Source: Candidatus Helarchaeota archaeon
Lineage (GTDB): Archaea > Asgardarchaeota > Lokiarchaeia > Helarchaeales > HEL-GB-A
Length of the DNA: 9,071 bases
Direction: 5' to 3'
NCBI GenBank assembly: GCA_013375405.1
Contig: JABXJU010000184.1
Location: forward strand, 1 to 9,071
Position 1 is the first letter of the stretch. Every line of letters begins with the position of its first letter. The translations under genes were made by a program, and so were the position numbers. Below the pieces are notes generated by a model. That model saw nothing but the letters and a program-made list of their open reading frames with translations. It was not told the DNA's origin and ran no database searches. Positions 2-9,071 of this stretch are shown in pieces.

Positions 2-1711
2 CTTATTTTTGAAGGTGAGCTGCTCGATCTCGTATTAGAGACCAAGCCTAATGTGCCAAATGTCCGATTTTATATTGGAACGAGTGATTCAGATAAGGAG
101 CTGCCCCCTGATTTTTATGATTATGAAGCTCTAATTAAAGAAGGAAAGAATAAAAACACGAAAGCGAAAGTCGATTGGGATGATACCAGCGTCATTATCT
201 ATACGGGTGGCACCACTGGGCGCCCTAAGGGGGTGATGCTATCTTATGAGAATATGGTTGTGAATCAAGAAGCTACCGTCAACTTGTTAATTACGTTTCT
301 CCCAAAAGTTAAAGATATTGATTATCCCCATTACGCACGGAGCAAAGGACAAGAAAAAATCCTCGATGTGCTCAATATGTTCCTCGGCCAGATGTATGCG
401 AAATTATTTACTGACCCTGAAGATAGAAGAATCATCGTTTTTGAATTGCCCCTTAAAGAAGGTGCCGTGCCTATGCCCCCTATAACGGTTAGACAGGTAG
501 AAGGAAAACTAAAGATGTTCCACGGAAAACCTGAGGAATATGATCTAAGGTTTGAGGGGACAATCATGGATCAAATCCGAGAATTTGTGAATTTACTTCC
601 AAAAGTATATAGTAAGAAAGGAAAACTTTCGATGTTTCCGAAATTAATTTGGAAATTTTTACTTGGAGGCGTTCATATGGAGGGATCCTTCAGAGATCGT
701 TTAAGGATGATCGGATCATTAGGCGCAAAGCCCGAAGATGAACGGATTACAGTAATGTTACTAACACCTCCAATGTTTCATCTTGCAGCTTATGCGTTAT
801 TTGTCCTCAATTGGCTGTTAAGCGGATCGACACTTGTATTTCCAGAGAGCCCAAGGTTTATACCGGCTCAAATAATTGAAATCATGGAAGAAAATAACGT
901 AGTGTGGACGCTTTTTGTGCCGACACAATGGAAGTGGATAATTGATTACTTAGAAAAGGAACGTCCCGATTTTACCTTGGATAGTTTAGAGGTAGCTTTC
1001 TCCGGAGCCGCCTTATTACGTGCTAAATACAAAAAGAAGATTTTGAAGTACTTTCCTAAAGCTCTACTAATAGATGTCTTTGGACAAACGGAAATGGCAC
1101 CTGCAGCCAGTGTTAAGATTGATGGGGATGAATCGACCTTACGAGATCGATCTGTAGGAAAAATAATTCCCAATATTGAAATTCAAATCGTTGATGATGA
1201 TGGGAATATAGTCGAAGATGAGGTAATAGGAGAAATCCTTTACCGAGGGCCAAATATAATGAAGGGTTATTATGGTGATCCAGAAAAAACGGCGCAAACT
1301 ATTGATGAAGATGGATGGTTGCACTCCGGGGACCTGGGATATATGAAAGATGGCGAAATATATACCATCGAACGGAAAAAAGAGTGTATTAGTACTGGCG
1401 CCGAAAAAGTGTTTCCGCTTGAAGTCGAAGAAATTCTCTCTGAGCATCCAAAGATAAAGGAAGTTTGTATTATTGGAGTTCCTGATGAAGATTGGGGGCA
1501 TACAGTCAGGGCAGTTGTCATCCCTAAAAAAGGATTAGTTCCTGAAAAAGACATTACTGGTCAAGAAATAATGGACTTTTGCAAAGATAAAATGGCAGGT
1601 TATAAAAAACCAAGATCAGTTGTATTCACCGACTCTTTTCCAATCTCGCCGGTGGGAAAAGCCCTGCGTGCGAAAATTCGGGAAAAATACGGACAACCTG
1701 ATACGAAATAA
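2..1711 (+). CDS. AMP-forming acyl-CoA ligase (ANL superfamily), 5'-truncated
   Basis: Probably activates a carboxylic acid, likely a fatty acid, with ATP to an acyl-AMP and then to acyl-CoA in the cytoplasm. The frame is open to the left edge, so the GTG at 53 is internal; upstream codons read LIFEGELLDLV, typical of this fold. Numbering from base 2 (569 residues visible), the ATP-binding loop YTGGTTGRPKG is at 67-77 (GG as in FadD-type ligases), PPMFHLAAY near 256-264, the VFGQTE adenine motif at 359-364, YRGPNIMKGYY from 414, GWLHSGDLG with the ribose-binding Asp at 438-446, the hinge-side RKKE at 458-461, and the C-terminal catalytic lysine in PVGKALRAKIRE at 553. All catalytic motifs are intact. 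About 180 residues separate the first two motifs instead of the usual 45-50, so a large insertion is present. Family is certain; the substrate cannot be read from sequence. The downstream gene is 153 bases away and seems unrelated. Confidence 0.93.
   Translation, partial: LIFEGELLDLVLETKPNVPNVRFYIGTSDSDKELPPDFYDYEALIKEGKNKNTKAKVDWDDTSVIIYTGGTTGRPKGVMLSYENMVVNQEATVNLLITFLPKVKDIDYPHYARSKGQEKILDVLNMFLGQMYAKLFTDPEDRRIIVFELPLKEGAVPMPPITVRQVEGKLKMFHGKPEEYDLRFEGTIMDQIREFVNLLPKVYSKKGKLSMFPKLIWKFLLGGVHMEGSFRDRLRMIGSLGAKPEDERITVMLLTPPMFHLAAYALFVLNWLLSGSTLVFPESPRFIPAQIIEIMEENNVVWTLFVPTQWKWIIDYLEKERPDFTLDSLEVAFSGAALLRAKYKKKILKYFPKALLIDVFGQTEMAPAASVKIDGDESTLRDRSVGKIIPNIEIQIVDDDGNIVEDEVIGEILYRGPNIMKGYYGDPEKTAQTIDEDGWLHSGDLGYMKDGEIYTIERKKECISTGAEKVFPLEVEEILSEHPKIKEVCIIGVPDEDWGHTVRAVVIPKKGLVPEKDITGQEIMDFCKDKMAGYKKPRSVVFTDSFPISPVGKALRAKIREKYGQPDTK
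284..730 (+). other. Insertion of about 150 residues within the acyl-CoA ligase
   Basis: Between the phosphate-binding loop and the PMFH motif this protein has roughly 150 extra residues (about 95-243 of the visible part). The reading frame stays open and the flanks match the family: LSYENM before and EDERITVMLLTPPMFH after. The inserted piece is charged and partly amphipathic, with a basic/hydrophobic run (KVYSKKGKLSMFPKLIWKFL) that could touch a membrane. I do not recognise it as a named domain. Exact edges are uncertain by about ten residues. Confidence 0.7.
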
Positions 1712-1864: not shown

Positions 1865-3922
1865 ATGGAATCCAGGGATAAAGCAAAAGCGGCAGAGAGC
1901 GTAGGAAACTTCGAGGCGGCAATTAAGCAATATAAAGCCGCAATTGAAGGTTATCTTGGAAGTGATGAGTTTTTAACTAACATTTTCCGCAATGTAGGAG
2001 AATGCCATTCGAGCATTGGTGCATGTTATTTGGTTAAATCCGATTATAAGGCTGCTTTAGAACATTTTAATAAAGCTATTGAATATATTGAAAGAGCCGC
2101 TGAAATTGAAGAAGAACAAGAGCTAAATCATTATATAATAGAATCTACTATTTTTAATATTGCGCTTTCAATTCTCTGTTCAATCAATTTAAATAAAGTA
2201 AATACCGATGTATTGCCTTCCATCCAAAAAGCAATCACATTAAGTGAAAATAATAATGTAGAAGGATTTGCTACGGATTTGAGCCTCTTTTTCTCGCATA
2301 TAATTGAAGAGAACATAAGCGAGGCTAAAACAATTTTAGAGGACAAAATTGAGAATGCCAAAGATGTGACCTTTTTGAGTTCGACTTTACAACCAATAAT
2401 CATAAGTCATGTAAGGAATGTTGCAACTAGATACCTACCAGCAGAATGGAGTCAAGATGAAGTTCTTGAGCAAAAATTAGAATTTGAGAATAAGGCAAAA
2501 GATGCCGAGAATGCGGGTGACTATTTATCTGCTATAAAAAACTATTCTCAAGCTTTAAAATCACTGAAATCAATCGGTCCACCTCAAAATCTTCGATTTG
2601 AGACCGGAACCTTACTCAATCGTGGTGCCTATTTAGCCACTCTTATCGGTAATTTCGATGATGCAATTAAACAATACAAAGAAGCAATCTCGGTATATTT
2701 AGTTAGTGATGCATACCTAATTGAAATATCTCGCAGTACGGGCGACTCTTATTCAAGCATTGGTGCGTGTTATCTGGCACAATCTAAATATAAAGCTGCT
2801 TTAGAACATTTTGAGAAGGCTATAGAATTTTATAATAGATCCATTGATCTGGAAGAAGAGGGCCAACGTTATTCTTTAGTAGAATGTACCGTTTTCAATT
2901 TAGCACTCTCAATCCTCTGTTTAATCAATTTAAATAACTCTACTGATATAATGCCATATTTACGAAAAGCAACTGTGTTAAGTCAAAAATATAATATAGA
3001 GGGGTTTGCTAAAGATTTGTGCCTCTTTTTTTTGCATGTAACAGATGAGAGCACTAGCGACGCTTATGCTAATTTAAATGAGAAACTTGAAAATGCCACG
3101 AATGTACCCGTGTTGAGTTCCACTCTGCATGCAACGGTTATGGCACTTGTAATGGACTTCGCGACTCGATATATTCCAGCAGCACGGACTCAGACTCAAG
3201 AGAAATTTATTGAGGAAAAGGGTGAAGTAATCCTCACGCGGAAAATATACGAGGACATGCTCTTATATGGACTTACATTCGCCAATAGAAAAATACCTCA
3301 TCCAAAATATCAAGAAGTCATGGCATTAATCGTCGGAAAATTAGTAAATGATGATGTTGTGATTTCTGAAATTGTTCCGATGGCTTCTGGAACAGATGTG
3401 GAAGTAGAATTTAAAGAAGAACATTATGCAAAAGCAGCTATGATTGATTCTAAAGCGGCAGAACGAAATGAGTTCATTGTAGGTTGGTTTCATACTCATC
3501 CACGTATAGGGTTATTTTTATCTCCGATAGATATTATTAATCAACTTGGATATCAGGCGTTGAACGAAAAAGCAATTGCCATTGTATTTGATTTCACTCA
3601 AATGACTCTTTTAAAATCAGGGTTTGGTATTTTTCGCTTAGATAATCCTAACAAGTCATATGCAGCATACCATTCGGTTCGTTGGCGCATTACTGATGAC
3701 TCCAAAAACCTATATTTTGATAGTATTGCCTTTTACAATAATTTTTTAGCTATTTTGAACAATAGACTCGCAAAAAAACAACAGATGAGTCTCACTCAAC
3801 TAGCAGAAGAATTAAACCGTTCGGAACTGATGCTCGAAGAAATCATCCCCAAATTGATCGAATTACAATATCTCCCCTCTACTTCCTATAATCCCGAAAC
3901 AAAAATAATATCAAAAAACTAA
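1865..3922 (+). CDS. TPR-like protein with C-terminal Rpn11-type JAMM (MPN+) metalloprotease
   Basis: Probable zinc isopeptidase that could remove ubiquitin-like modifiers in the cytoplasm, with helical repeats binding a partner. Residues 1-200 and about 201-440 are two related TPR-like helical modules, for example GNFEAAIKQYK and GNFDDAIKQYK, both reaching SSIGACYL and ALEHF. The JAMM domain spans about 455-600: Glu484 in QEVMALIVG, then VGWFHTHPRIGLFLSPID giving His543, His545, Ser553 and Asp556, the full E/HxH(x7)SxxD set. The flanks SGTDVEVE, YQALNEKAIAIVFD and the domain order follow eukaryotic Rpn11 closely. Residues 640-685 look like a small winged helix (LTQLAEELNR, then LIELQYLP). 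The ATG is bounded upstream by an in-frame TGA at 1850-1852 and has no Shine-Dalgarno. No signal peptide or membrane helix is seen. Substrate and partners are unknown; no ubiquitin, E1 or E2 gene is nearby. Confidence 0.9.
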   Translation: MESRDKAKAAESVGNFEAAIKQYKAAIEGYLGSDEFLTNIFRNVGECHSSIGACYLVKSDYKAALEHFNKAIEYIERAAEIEEEQELNHYIIESTIFNIALSILCSINLNKVNTDVLPSIQKAITLSENNNVEGFATDLSLFFSHIIEENISEAKTILEDKIENAKDVTFLSSTLQPIIISHVRNVATRYLPAEWSQDEVLEQKLEFENKAKDAENAGDYLSAIKNYSQALKSLKSIGPPQNLRFETGTLLNRGAYLATLIGNFDDAIKQYKEAISVYLVSDAYLIEISRSTGDSYSSIGACYLAQSKYKAALEHFEKAIEFYNRSIDLEEEGQRYSLVECTVFNLALSILCLINLNNSTDIMPYLRKATVLSQKYNIEGFAKDLCLFFLHVTDESTSDAYANLNEKLENATNVPVLSSTLHATVMALVMDFATRYIPAARTQTQEKFIEEKGEVILTRKIYEDMLLYGLTFANRKIPHPKYQEVMALIVGKLVNDDVVISEIVPMASGTDVEVEFKEEHYAKAAMIDSKAAERNEFIVGWFHTHPRIGLFLSPIDIINQLGYQALNEKAIAIVFDFTQMTLLKSGFGIFRLDNPNKSYAAYHSVRWRITDDSKNLYFDSIAFYNNFLAILNNRLAKKQQMSLTQLAEELNRSELMLEEIIPKLIELQYLPSTSYNPETKIISKN
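1904..3181 (+). repeat. In-frame internal duplication of the helical module (period about 744 bases)
   Basis: Residues 14-193 (bases 1904-2443) are repeated at 262-439 (2648-3181). The two copies share GNF..AIKQYK, SSIGACYL, YKAALEHF, FNxALSILCxINLN, NxEGFAxDLxLFF, LSSTL and ATRYxPA. At DNA level GCTGCTTTAGAACATTTT is identical at 2051 and 2795, exactly 744 bases (248 codons) apart. The copies end 246 residues apart, so two residues have been lost or gained since. An extra TPR-like helix pair (about 205-261) sits between them. Confidence 0.85.
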
Positions 3923-3987: not shown

Positions 3988-5334
3988 TTACTCAGATTTT
4001 AAGAACTTGCTGTATATTTCAAAAAACGTGTCATAATGAATTTCAAGCAGATCTAAATGTTTAATGGCAGCCTCGGGCTTTATTATCTTTTCTTGCATAT
4101 CAGCTCGGATGTTGTCTATCATATATTCGGGATAATATTGTGGTATTGAGATGTCTGTCTTAAGTAATACCCAATCTCTTTTCGTCTCATCAGGAATGAT
4201 TGTAACTAATCCATCCATTTCCAATGCTTTAATGATTGTCTGCATATCTATTTCCCCAAATCCCTTCGGAAATTTTTTGAATGGGTAGGATTGCTCTCGT
4301 AAAAGTACGACGGTTACAAAAACATCGGGATTCAATATATCTTCTGCAAGAAGGATATTATCTCCAGGATTTGGTCTGTAAGTATTAAAGTACTCTGTAA
4401 TTTCTTCGAGATATTTGTCAGCAACTTCCTTTGTTGGAAGGCCTTTCTTGGCCTCCGCAACAATCTTCTCGGCTGGTGACCTAAATAGTGCAAAATCAGA
4501 AATTAAAAAGAGATGCACATCGTAATTACCTTTGAACCACTCCATTTGAACAAGTTCGGCTCTAACAAAATAATCAAGAACCTCATTTAGCTTATGAGCC
4601 GTACATGGGATTTCTTTTGCCTCTAAATGACTTAATATATCAGCTTTATTTCTGGCTCTTTTCCGTAAGAGATCCAAGATGTTTCTTTCTATTTCGTTGG
4701 CGTGAATATAAGCGAGCATTTGTTCTCTTCCCAAGAATTCTATCTCTTCTTCAATGGGTACAGTTGGTTCAGTTGGTGGTTCAACTGGTTTCGGTTTAGC
4801 TCGATGAAGAATTGCTACAGAATTCGCTCGACACGTAATTGCATCCAAATACATTGTAATTTCTACAACATTTTCTAGAAAATCATGGACGGTCTTCCTA
4901 TTTTTTCCAGTAATATCCTCTATGACTTTAGGCTCTTCTTCAATTGCTTTCTCGATAGTGTAATCTTTATCGGCTAGACTATTAAGAATCTCCTTATCGA
5001 AGTCTAATAGTAGAATCCGTTGCGCTTTTTTTCGGTATTCGATGAATCTATGGACTGGGAGTTTCACCTTCGCATAAAGAGCAAATGGATTTGCCTTTGT
5101 TAAATCTTCTATAGTCTTGACTCCGATACCCTCGAACTTGGCTGTAATTTTAGGTCCGAGTCCATCTATGGCTTCTACGCTTAGATTATCTAATGTTTTT
5201 TCAGAAATGATTTTTTTCTCTATTTCTTCTTTTAGTGATTTTTTAGCTGCTTTTTCAGGTGCTTTTTTAGCTGCTTTTTCAGGTGCTTTTTTAGCTGCTT
5301 TTTCAGGTGCTTTTCCTTTCTCCGAATTACTCAT
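3988..5334 (-). CDS. HhH and winged-helix-like protein with lysine/alanine/proline repeat tail
   Basis: A 448-residue soluble protein of unknown function; the folds suggest nucleic-acid or protein binding. Residues 8-32 are a basic low-complexity tail of KAPEKAAK repeats. Residues 52-90 form a helix-hairpin-helix like the N-terminal domain of RadA (AIDGLGPKITAKFEGIGVKT), and 118-165 look like a second helical unit of the same kind (TIEKAIEEEP, ITGKNRKTVHDFL). A proline-rich linker (180-195) leads to a probable winged helix at 211-285 (ERNILDLLRKR, then LNEVLDYFVRAELVQ), and 330-395 may be another. No catalytic motif, signal peptide or membrane segment is seen. The ATG at 5334 has a strong Shine-Dalgarno six bases upstream and lies 24 bases behind the surface-protein gene, so the two are surely co-transcribed. 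It could be a DNA-binding regulator or a cytosolic partner of the surface protein; neither is shown. Confidence 0.85.
   Translation of the reverse strand: MSNSEKGKAPEKAAKKAPEKAAKKAPEKAAKKSLKEEIEKKIISEKTLDNLSVEAIDGLGPKITAKFEGIGVKTIEDLTKANPFALYAKVKLPVHRFIEYRKKAQRILLLDFDKEILNSLADKDYTIEKAIEEEPKVIEDITGKNRKTVHDFLENVVEITMYLDAITCRANSVAILHRAKPKPVEPPTEPTVPIEEEIEFLGREQMLAYIHANEIERNILDLLRKRARNKADILSHLEAKEIPCTAHKLNEVLDYFVRAELVQMEWFKGNYDVHLFLISDFALFRSPAEKIVAEAKKGLPTKEVADKYLEEITEYFNTYRPNPGDNILLAEDILNPDVFVTVVLLREQSYPFKKFPKGFGEIDMQTIIKALEMDGLVTIIPDETKRDWVLLKTDISIPQYYPEYMIDNIRADMQEKIIKPEAAIKHLDLLEIHYDTFFEIYSKFLKSE
5239..5310 (-). repeat. Three perfect 24-base tandem repeats encoding KAPEKAAK
   Basis: Units at 5239-5262, 5263-5286 and 5287-5310 are identical on the given strand. 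Each encodes eight residues of a lysine-, alanine- and proline-rich tail near the N-terminus of the HhH protein. Identity at third codon positions points to recent or slippage-driven expansion, so copy number may vary between strains. Confidence 0.95.
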
Positions 5335-5358: not shown

Positions 5359-8300
5359 CTATTCCATCCCCTTGCTCTTCTTTAATACGGAAATTGTTTC
5401 AGGTTCTGGCTTTGCAACGGGCGCTTTTCCTATTTTTCCTAACTTTAATTTCTCCAAGTAGATATCTTCGACCATCGCTTCTCTTTTCTTTAAATCCAAT
5501 GGAGGTGTTTCTTTGCCTTTATTTATATCGCGTTTCGTCTTTCGAATGGTTCTGATCGTCTTTGGCACTTTAAAGTATAATTGATATACTGTGAAAGCTC
5601 CTGCTACTGCTCCAAGTACTCCAACTAAGGTCCAAATTAACCATGTAAAGCTGGGCGCAATCCAATTCACCAGGACGGATACAGGTATCGCGTCCAATCC
5701 AAAAGTCGAGTTGGCCCAAAACTTGAATTCAAATTCACCTGCCTCTGAACGCGTGAAGATCAGAATTTCACTATAAAATCCCGAAAAATTGGTCGCTAAG
5801 GTAACATTGATTCCCGTGAATGGATTGAGATACCACAGGTGGGAAACATTGCCGGATCCGCTTGTACAAGTCACGTTGATATAGGTATTTTTTTTGGTTT
5901 CAGGATTTTGGGGACTCGCGCTCACGGTTAAGCTGGGAGGTGAAAGGGCTGTCCAGGTGATTGTGATGGTTTCAGAGACCTCCAAATCAAAAGTGGAGTT
6001 GGCCCAAAACTTGAAGTCATATGGGCCTGGTGTTAGACTCGTGAAGTCTAAGTAATAGGTTTGACTCCCTGTAAAGTCATTGGCTAAGGTAGTATTGCTT
6101 CCCAAAAGCGGATTGTGATACCAGAGTGTGTCTACAAGTCCGGAACCATTTTCACAGGTCACGTTGAATTGAACCCATTCATTGACGTCAAGAACTGTGG
6201 TATTCGCGCTCACATCTAAGGTAGGAGGTAAAGGATCTACCCACACCACTGTGATGAACGCATAAACTTCTTCACCTAAACTTGTGTTGGCCCAGAACTT
6301 ATATTCATATGCGCCTGCCGTTGGACTCTGATTGGTTATGGGAAAGGCCTGGAGTAACACAAAGTTGGTAGCTAAGGTAGTATTGCTTCCAATGAACGGA
6401 TTGAGATACCACAGGTGTGAAACGTTCACGGATCCAGGTTGACAGGTGACCGTAAGTTCTGTCCAGTCATTCGTGTAAGGATCTGTGATATTAGCGATCA
6501 CATTTAACAAAGGAGGAACAGGGGTTACCCAGACTATCATGAGAGACGTAGATTCCTCTGCTAAGAATGTTGAGTTGGCCCAAAACGTGTATTGATATGG
6601 GCCGGCTGTTGGACTCGCGTTATACACATAAAAGGTCTGGAGTCCTGCAAAGTTAGTGCCTAGGGTTATATTGGTACCAGTGAACGGATTTTCATACCAC
6701 ACGTGCGAAACATTCCCGGATCCACTTAAACAGCTCACGTTGATTTGAACCGTTAGATCGAGGTAAAGAGTTGTAGTATTTGCAAGCACATTTAAAGCGG
6801 GGGGTTGCGGTTCTGCCCAGACTATGATGATAGAATCAAATGTCTCTAATCCTAAGGTTGAGTTGGCCCAAAACTTGTATTCCTGTATAACTGGAGTTGT
6901 ACTCATATTGTACACGTAAAAGATCTGATACCCCGCAAAGTTAGTGCCTAGGGTTATATTGGTTCCAGTGAATGGGTTTTCATACCACACGTGTGAAACG
7001 TTTCCAGATCCACTTTGACAACCCAATGTGATTTCAGTCCAAAAATTAATGAAGGGATTCGTGGTATTGGCGATCAAAGTTAAGGCGGGGGGTAGCGGTT
7101 CTACCCAGACCACCGTAACGGATTCAGTAACTTCCAAACCTAGACTCGAGTTGGCCCAAACCTTGAATTCATACGGGCCTGCTGTGTCATTCATGAAGTC
7201 CACATAATGGGTCTGAAGTCCCGTAAAGTCGGTCGCTAAGGTATTATTGGTTCCATCGAACGGATTGTTATACCACAAGCGGGAAACACTGCCGGATCCA
7301 CTTTGACAGGTTATCGTGAGTTGAGTCCACTCATTAACGTCTGGAGTAGTGTCATTAGCGCTCACAGTTAAGGCGGGAGGTTGAGGTTCTACCCACATCA
7401 CCGTGACGGATTCGGTAGCTAGCAATCCTAAAGTCGAGTTGGCCCAGAACTTGAATTCATATTGGCCTGCTGTATCGTTGGTAAAGGCTAAATAATGGAT
7501 TTGGAACCCTGAAAAGTCGGTTGCTATAGTATTATTGGTTCCATCGAACGGATTGTTATACCACAAGCGGGAAACATTGCCGGAACCACTTTGACAGGTC
7601 ACCGTGAGGTTCGTCCAGTCATTGGTGTAAGGATTTGTGATATTAGCGACAACTGTTAACAAAGGCGGGACAGGGGTTACCCAGACTATGATGATCGACG
7701 TAGATACATTCACTCGATAAGTTGAGTTAGCCCAAAACTTGTATTCATATGAGCCTGCTATTAAAGTCGTATTGTACACATAAAAGGTCTGGAGTCCTGC
7801 AAAGTTAGTACCTAAGGTTATATTGCTTCCAGTGAACGGATTTTCATACCATACACGCGAAATATTTCCGGTCCCACTTAAACAGCTCACGTTGATTTGA
7901 ACCCATTGGGTGAGGAAAAGACTTGTAGTATTAGCGAGCACAGTTAGAATGGGCGGTTGAGGTTCTACCCAGACTATTGTGATGTCATCATATACCTCTA
8001 TTCCTAAAGATGAGTTGGCCCAAAACTGGTATATATAAGGGCCGGCTATTGTACTCGTATCGTATATACTAAAACTCTGGATCCCAGTGAAGTCGGTGGC
8101 TAAGGTGGTATTGGATCCAGTGATCGGATTGAAATACCATAACGTGTCAACAAGTCCGGAGCCGTTTTCACAGGTCACCGTGATGTTCGTGTAGTCAAGC
8201 ATGAAAAGATTGGTGACATTTGCGGTCACACTCAAGGTGGGTGCTGTAGATTGTACCCATACAACAAGGACTTCGTCATATGACTCTAATCCAATGCTGG

Positions 8301-9071
8301 AATTGGCCCAAAATCTAAACAACTTCGCCCCCGGCGTCGCGCTCGTGAAGTTTAAAAGGTGGATTTGTTGTCCAGTAAAGTCTGTTGCTATTGTATAATT
8401 CGTCGTATTAAGTGGATGGTAATACCATAGTGTATCGACAAGTCCGGTACCATTGTCACAGGTCACTGTCATTTGAGTCGTTTGATTTACGAATAAATAA
8501 GTTGTGTTCGCCACGACACTCAATGATGGCTCATCCAAAGTTATTGTATAGTTTATCCAAAGATAGACGTCATCGATGGAAATAGTAATACTATTATTTA
8601 AAATGAAATTATCGGCGAGATACACTCGAAGTGAGAGTGTAATATTCACATTTTTTTGGATTAAGGGGGTGACATCATATCCACCCGTTTTGGCGTCTTG
8701 AAAACTCGCGGTAGCAGAACTCAGTTTGACGGTTTCGGAATGCGGAATATTATTAATCAACATTCTGATTTCAGCGTTGGGGGAGTCCGCTGTAGGCCAA
8801 CTCTGATTTGATCTATATCTGAAATGTAACCTTGCCGAATCTACTAGAAGGGTCCCTGGGGTTTGGGGTAGTTCATTTCCTACCTGGTTCCAATCCGCGT
8901 AGGTGTTGCGATCAATGTTTTTCTCGTAGGAAAAGGTTAGATTGAACGATTTAATCCGGATCATGGTCCAAGTATCCAAATCAAACGCTGGATCATTATC
9001 TTCGCAATAAATGAATATTCCCAGAGTAATGGTAAAGTTATAATCATCGCTTCCTAAAGCAGATGTTAAAT
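5359..9071 (-). CDS. Giant surface protein with ten Ig-like 96-residue repeats and C-terminal membrane anchor, 5'-truncated
   Basis: A probable type I membrane protein forming an extracellular stalk, adhesin or surface-layer component. The frame stays open to the right edge; the TTG at 8979 is an internal Leu codon, and 30 further residues precede it. Numbering from that codon, residues 1-150 form a beta-rich domain (YADWNQVGNE, VDSARLHFRYR, GYDVTPLIQ), and the residues at the edge look like the end of a previous copy. Residues 151-1110 are ten repeats of exactly 96 residues, each with a lone Cys, a WY pair, a WAN sequon and a late Trp. I count about 55 N-x-S/T sites in the repeats. A membrane helix at 1111-1136 is followed by a 70-residue basic cytoplasmic tail. 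The signal peptide must lie outside the window. The HhH gene follows by 24 bases. I do not recognise a named family; an Ig-like or PKD-like fold is likely. Confidence 0.9.
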   Translation of the reverse strand, partial: LTSALGSDDYNFTITLGIFIYCEDNDPAFDLDTWTMIRIKSFNLTFSYEKNIDRNTYADWNQVGNELPQTPGTLLVDSARLHFRYRSNQSWPTADSPNAEIRMLINNIPHSETVKLSSATASFQDAKTGGYDVTPLIQKNVNITLSLRVYLADNFILNNSITISIDDVYLWINYTITLDEPSLSVVANTTYLFVNQTTQMTVTCDNGTGLVDTLWYYHPLNTTNYTIATDFTGQQIHLLNFTSATPGAKLFRFWANSSIGLESYDEVLVVWVQSTAPTLSVTANVTNLFMLDYTNITVTCENGSGLVDTLWYFNPITGSNTTLATDFTGIQSFSIYDTSTIAGPYIYQFWANSSLGIEVYDDITIVWVEPQPPILTVLANTTSLFLTQWVQINVSCLSGTGNISRVWYENPFTGSNITLGTNFAGLQTFYVYNTTLIAGSYEYKFWANSTYRVNVSTSIIIVWVTPVPPLLTVVANITNPYTNDWTNLTVTCQSGSGNVSRLWYNNPFDGTNNTIATDFSGFQIHYLAFTNDTAGQYEFKFWANSTLGLLATESVTVMWVEPQPPALTVSANDTTPDVNEWTQLTITCQSGSGSVSRLWYNNPFDGTNNTLATDFTGLQTHYVDFMNDTAGPYEFKVWANSSLGLEVTESVTVVWVEPLPPALTLIANTTNPFINFWTEITLGCQSGSGNVSHVWYENPFTGTNITLGTNFAGYQIFYVYNMSTTPVIQEYKFWANSTLGLETFDSIIIVWAEPQPPALNVLANTTTLYLDLTVQINVSCLSGSGNVSHVWYENPFTGTNITLGTNFAGLQTFYVYNASPTAGPYQYTFWANSTFLAEESTSLMIVWVTPVPPLLNVIANITDPYTNDWTELTVTCQPGSVNVSHLWYLNPFIGSNTTLATNFVLLQAFPITNQSPTAGAYEYKFWANTSLGEEVYAFITVVWVDPLPPTLDVSANTTVLDVNEWVQFNVTCENGSGLVDTLWYHNPLLGSNTTLANDFTGSQTYYLDFTSLTPGPYDFKFWANSTFDLEVSETITITWTALSPPSLTVSASPQNPETKKNTYINVTCTSGSGNVSHLWYLNPFTGINVTLATNFSGFYSEILIFTRSEAGEFEFKFWANSTFGLDAIPVSVLVNWIAPSFTWLIWTLVGVLGAVAGAFTVYQLYFKVPKTIRTIRKTKRDINKGKETPPLDLKKREAMVEDIYLEKLKLGKIGKAPVAKPEPETISVLKKSKGME
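5572..5649 (-). other. C-terminal transmembrane helix of the surface protein
   Basis: Residues 1111-1136 (numbered from the TTG at 8979) are a hydrophobic run with TLVGVLGAVAGAFTVY, bordered on the C-terminal side by KVPKTIRTIRKTKR. The positive-inside rule puts the repeats outside and the tail inside. A GAVAG (GxxxG) step could pack helices together. Confidence 0.88.
5650..8529 (-). repeat. Ten gapless 288-base tandem units (96 residues each)
   Basis: In protein order the units begin at bases 8529, 8241, 7953, 7665, 7377, 7089, 6801, 6513, 6225 and 5937 and end at 5650. I counted every unit by hand and each is exactly 96 residues with no insertion or deletion. Conserved in all ten are a Cys at unit position 24, WY at about 35-36, WAN near 74-76 followed by a sequon, and Trp near 91. 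The order Cys, Trp, (A/P)G.Y or similar, then AN..G matches Ig strands B, C and F, but the strand-F Cys is replaced by an aromatic or other residue. Confidence 0.95.

Follow-up and report, generated by a model that had tools for sequence, protein, structure and literature searches.

The 9,071-nucleotide contig JABXJU010000184.1 from the Candidatus Helarchaeota archaeon assembly GCA_013375405.1 (the window, analysed at its full length) encodes a 685-residue protein in which a JAMM metalloprotease domain lies between tetratricopeptide repeats (TPR) and a C-terminal winged helix. At a rough probability of 0.68, we read this protein as a JAMM isopeptidase with several domains, from Asgard archaea of the Helarchaeota type, that works in the manner of Rpn11 or CSN5, and its sequence makes it likely to be an active deubiquitinase-like isopeptidase. 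The gene and its parts are as follows.

1865..3922, plus strand: whole open reading frame, 685 residues, in the order TPR block 1, TPR block 2, JAMM, winged helix (open reading frame list, Pfam, AlphaFold2)
1868..2434, plus strand: TPR block 1 (residues 2-190), a diverged additional copy, with helices from 2-12 to 175-190 in the AlphaFold2 model
2453..3172, plus strand: TPR block 2 (residues 197-436), the block common to the family
3209..3688, plus strand: JAMM (MPN+) domain (residues 449-608), the stretch aligned with CsRpn11 of Caldiarchaeum subterraneum
3314..3316, plus strand: E484, predicted catalytic glutamate, paired by alignment with Glu48 of yeast Rpn11
3395..3397, plus strand: D511 in the Ins-1 loop, opposite Gly77 of yeast Rpn11 in the alignment
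3491..3499, plus strand: H543-T-H545, predicted zinc ligands, both histidines 29/29 in the family alignment
3521..3532, plus strand: S553 and D556 of SxxD, predicted transition-state and zinc residues, both 29/29
3698..3919, plus strand: lead-in helix and C-terminal winged helix (residues 612-685), PCI type by fold

The protein matches Pfam JAB (PF01398) at 45.1 bits (E 1e-11; cutoff 22.5), and it has both the E...HxHx7SxxD motif and the MPN fold of JAMM/MPN+ metalloproteases; the AlphaFold2 model of the whole chain has a mean pLDDT of 86.2 and a pTM of 0.68. The original prediction had reported an intact catalytic center, and E484, H543, H545, S553, and D556 (codons starting at 3314, 3491, 3497, 3521, and 3530) are indeed all present and are invariant in the 29 rows of an alignment of the window's protein with its relatives. 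Searching the PDB by sequence gave 57 matches at E values up to 1, with Rpn11/PSMD14 first at about 6e-17, then CsRpn11 (4e-14) and CSN5 (3e-11), followed by AMSH and BRCC36 (about 1e-6), eIF3h, and a subunit-7 MPN protein. The JAB score, these E values, and the five invariant residues together argue that the JAMM assignment is not due to chance. Sequence and predicted fold agree in placing Rpn11, the archaeal CsRpn11, and CSN5 nearest among solved structures, and among these Rpn11 is the closest by sequence. Five segments had been said to follow Rpn11, and all were found where they had been placed (EVMALIVG at 3314-3337, SGTDVEVE at 3386-3409, VGWFHTHP at 3479-3502, LSPIDI at 3518-3535, and ALNEKAIAIVFD at 3557-3592); the pattern is that of Rpn11, but most of the letters differ, with 25 to 28% identity to isolated yeast Rpn11 chains in the Foldseek rows. 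The domain had been placed at 3227..3664; the range aligned with CsRpn11 is slightly wider. Not included in those coordinates are the TPR and winged-helix regions, which bear most on lid-type complexes.

A search with residues 440-685 retrieved 34 proteins: the window's own (P0001, recorded on a single contig of 9,074 bases), 28 proteins of 479 to 533 residues with the order TPR-JAMM-winged helix (P0002 to P0029), and P0030 to P0034. Mean pairwise identity across 28 aligned rows (P0029 left out) was 66% in the JAMM domain, against 43% in the TPR and 46% in the winged helix, and the enzyme core is therefore the best-kept part. That the gene is archaeal, as had been proposed, is borne out by its organism-named relatives, seven of nine of which are assigned to Helarchaeota or Promethearchaeota. 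The remaining two (P0005 and P0006) are labeled Candidatus Deferrimicrobium, which we take to be a bacterial name, and are likely the result of misbinning or a wrong label; P0006 is the sister of the window's protein in the tree (91/57). P0017 and P0028 are two different family members for both of which the longest contig is 135,780 bases, and they are probably paralogs on one contig. P0030 to P0034 (P0032 is named Promethearchaeota) have the opposite order, with the JAMM domain first and then a long, probably helical-repeat part, which in P0030 gives weak Rgg_C and SNAP matches.

A wider profile search gave 132 matches, 120 of which were listed; length classes and pattern counts refer to 121 proteins including that of the window. 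The pattern G[WT][FYIV]H[ST]HPx6SxxD was present in 117 of these. The TPR-JAMM type, with its motif more than 300 residues from the start, accounted for 31/121, the remainder being 7 proteins with more than 300 residues past the motif, 70 of middle size, 12 short, and 1 without the motif; P0035 and P0036 are short and perhaps fragments. This search also brought in, along with other archaeal JAMM proteins, P0038 and P0085, which share the TPR-JAMM-winged-helix order but have a longer C terminus. Among the matches listed, the motif starts at residues 335 to 346 in the other 30 TPR-JAMM proteins and at residue 542 in the window's protein, which alone has a motif starting past residue 500 and alone carries the additional TPR block 1. 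This block shares 100 of 191 aligned residues with block 2 and 92 of 180 with P0002, and since it is about equally near to both, the doubling is not recent.

Phylogenies of the JAMM domain were built from 52 rows (the window's protein, 43 of the 121 proteins picked to span types, and 8 PDB references) and then from 51 rows, leaving out Af_JAMM, which had a very long branch; one of the 44 prokaryotic rows (P0120) bears a bacterial name. In the first tree, the window's protein fell within its family (96/97), which was next joined by P0029 and P0038 (97/88) and then formed part of a 29-row group (99/89) that we call Asgard-type, as its named rows are Asgard except for the two Deferrimicrobium labels. 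A 42-row group (96/87) added rows named, where named, Thermoplasmata or Methanomassiliicoccales. In the second tree, Rpn11 paired with CSN5 (79/88), and a branch with weak support (83/55) set the 44 prokaryotic rows apart. Approximately unbiased (AU) tests were run on the second tree, with groups defined after the first had been seen. Asgard-type rows with eukaryotic Rpn11 but without CSN5 were rejected (P = 0.00115, with two Rpn11 sequences and one CSN5 sequence). The 44 rows with CsRpn11 and Rpn11, set against CSN5, AMSH, and BRCC36, were not rejected (P = 0.095), nor were the Asgard-type rows with AMSH (P = 0.256); P was 0.295 for the 44 rows with Rpn11, CSN5, and CsRpn11 and 0.28 for all TPR-JAMM types as one group, and two further groups were already present in the tree. 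These results are to be read with a thin reference sampling (two Rpn11, two AMSH, one CSN5, one BRCC36, and one CsRpn11), several long reference branches, and a tool warning of odd letter makeup in the AMSH and yeast Rpn11 rows. These groupings and AU results put the JAMM domain into an Asgard-type group, itself part of a larger archaeal branch that is Rpn11/CSN5-like; no exclusive tie to Rpn11 emerges from them. The affinity of the domain that had been predicted was thus supported at the level of this branch, and Rpn11 orthology was not supported as stated, nor was the proposed specific tie to Rpn11 and through it to the origin of the proteasome lid. A placement with RadC or bacterial JAB proteins, named beforehand as a possible refutation, was not seen: RadC was absent from the 57 PDB matches, Prok-JAB (PF14464) scored 17.9 bits, below its 25-bit cutoff, and the tree was one built without RadC.

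From the computed domains, conservation, fold resemblance, and tree position, we infer a mechanism that includes zinc binding, activity, the modifier, the partners, and what the TPR blocks and winged helix do. In JAMM enzymes, a glutamate activates water and a serine steadies the transition state. The window's protein would accordingly be expected to hold a zinc ion by H543, H545, and D556, to activate the zinc-bound water through E484, to steady the transition state with S553, and to hydrolyze the bond that follows the last glycine of a ubiquitin-like modifier, the C-terminal tail of which is held by Ins-1 (around residues 507-517). Zinc in JAMM enzymes is held by the histidines and aspartate of the motif, with the glutamate hydrogen-bonded to its ligand (in part from PMC300881), and in the CsRpn11-ubiquitin structure the last glycine of the modifier lies at the cleavage site (PMC6043591). 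By analogy, recruitment of a tagged substrate or an adaptor may fall to the TPR blocks, and edge-to-edge joining of protein copies or partners to the winged helix. CsRpn11 acts alone (PMC5654768), and so its Asgard relative may act alone too.

It is distinctly unlikely that the protein is a direct Rpn11 ortholog, an archaeal ancestor-type lid deubiquitinase that would act at the archaeal proteasome. The best PDB matches, the motif, and the fold are those of Rpn11, and the AU test that kept Rpn11 and CsRpn11 with the 44 rows was not rejected; yet Rpn11 groups with CSN5 rather than with the Asgard-type rows, as the rejected AU grouping also indicates, and TPR and a winged helix stand in place of its terminal helices. 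CSN5 acts inside the COP9 signalosome and is not known to carry either TPR or a winged helix itself. Rpn11 is anchored to the lid by its terminal helices and Ins-2, and Gly77 in its Ins-1 has a described role in yeast (PMC6043591), whereas the window's protein has D511 at that position. CsRpn11 (6fju, 6fnn) is a single domain of about 200 residues encoded beside a ubiquitin operon (PMC5654768, PMC6043591); it has neither TPR nor winged helix, has Pro in Ins-1, and likewise lacks Gly77. The other Asgard-type JAMM proteins (P0030 to P0034, P0072, P0051, P0101, and kin) belong to the same larger JAMM group but have a long part or none past the JAMM domain and no TPR block ahead of it, and Pfam found no winged-helix model in P0030, P0051, P0072, or P0101. 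An archaeal protein with an intact JAMM motif would also suit a desampylase-like role on MoaD-like modifiers, as in general archaeal enzymes of the SAMP/JAMM-1 kind; such enzymes and ubiquitin systems coexist in archaea (PMC6043591). We nevertheless regard this role as very improbable, given the subthreshold Prok-JAB score and a family profile that matches Rpn11, CsRpn11, CSN5, AMSH, and BRCC36 and not AfJAMM, the only JAMM-1 protein compared. An unlikely alternative of another kind is a sensor-regulator with a DNA-binding winged helix and a partner-sensing TPR (compare Rap proteins), in which the JAMM domain cleaves or merely binds a modifier as a switch.

The C-terminal part has the PCI winged-helix fold with its lead-in helix and fits the winged helices of PCI subunits, in scores that stand without a baseline from an unrelated archaeal winged helix and in structure rows sorted by title, since chain names such as 9e8o_X are unexplained. 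Pfam PCI matched 7 of 19 pieces from the 29 rows, all below the cutoff (best, 20.4 versus 22 bits). P0038 (Helarchaeota) has, at residues 489-541, a second winged helix above the PCI cutoff (27 bits) that is absent from the window's protein; P0085 (Lokiarchaeota) has a similar layout and no PCI match. To our knowledge, PCI subunits of the lid, the COP9 signalosome, and eIF3 have no JAMM domain. They resemble the window's protein in having TPR-like repeats and a C-terminal winged helix, the latter involved in PCI-PCI contacts (PMC1274264), but their repeats run straight into the winged helix, whereas here residues 449-608 intervene. Six winged helices of this kind together form an 18-stranded sheet in the lid (PMC4749569). 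PCI-like winged helices occur in archaeal ESCRT-linked kinases, and HTH/PCI plus TPR domains occur in Asgard proteins (PMC10936438, the main text of which has no term beginning "JAB" or "Rpn11"). No description of the TPR-JAMM-winged-helix family was found in open-access titles and abstract openings, and an earlier one may exist in supplements or the subscription literature, most of which lies outside that coverage. It is conceivable, if doubtful, that the protein is a one-chain PCI/MPN counterpart with a TPR solenoid, a catalytic MPN domain, and a true PCI winged helix, the sheets of which would set deubiquitinase sites in an arc.

Three observations weigh against an isopeptidase that works like Rpn11 or CSN5. 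D511 stands in Ins-1 where yeast Rpn11, CsRpn11, and AMSH carry Gly or Pro, and across the 29 rows this position is E in 18, D in 7, K in 2, and N and S in 1 each, with Gly in none. The winged-helix piece of the window's protein has no Pfam PCI (PF01399) match at E values up to 1. Genes for ubiquitin, E1, E2, or E3/RING were not found among the four long and nine small open reading frames of the window, and the 9 kb shows no ubiquitin-operon setting of the CsRpn11 type. Ubiquitin-ESCRT genes are known in Helarchaeota (PMC9192718), and the group therefore has a substrate system, even if the neighborhood of the JAMM gene yielded none.

The JAMM gene is flanked in the window by about 1.9 kb of upstream and 5.1 kb of downstream sequence, with three other long open reading frames.

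2-1711, plus strand: acyl-CoA ligase (AMP-binding), by Pfam; 5' end open
3988-5334, minus strand: helix-hairpin-helix-like protein, 448 residues, by weak matches
5359-9069, minus strand: large surface protein; open at the 5' end, which runs past the contig

Family models match the acyl-CoA ligase in two stretches, best from about residue 250 on, and the stretch between looks like an insertion. In the 448-residue protein, the helix-hairpin-helix-like stretch weakly matches models of DNA polymerase beta (E 0.0016) and DNA polymerase IV, and APEKAAKK repeats form a run at the N terminus. In the surface protein, [FV]WAN[ST] occurs ten times at a spacing of exactly 96 residues, its 1236 residues contain 61 N-glycosylation sequons, and the C terminus has a hydrophobic stretch and a basic tail. 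The nine smaller open reading frames (61 to 120 residues) had no Pfam match at E values up to 0.1.

The interesting feature of this protein is that a single conserved archaeal chain combines TPR, a catalytic MPN domain, and a PCI-type winged helix; the parts joined here resemble blocks that sit in separate proteasome-lid subunits of human cells. A single recombinant protein could address whether the winged helix assembles and whether such assembly governs cleavage of the cognate ubiquitin-like modifier. If the one-chain PCI/MPN counterpart is real, the MPN and PCI modules of the lid, the COP9 signalosome, and eIF3 would already have been connected in Asgard archaea ahead of their division among separate subunits, or Asgard archaea may have built a parallel version of their own.
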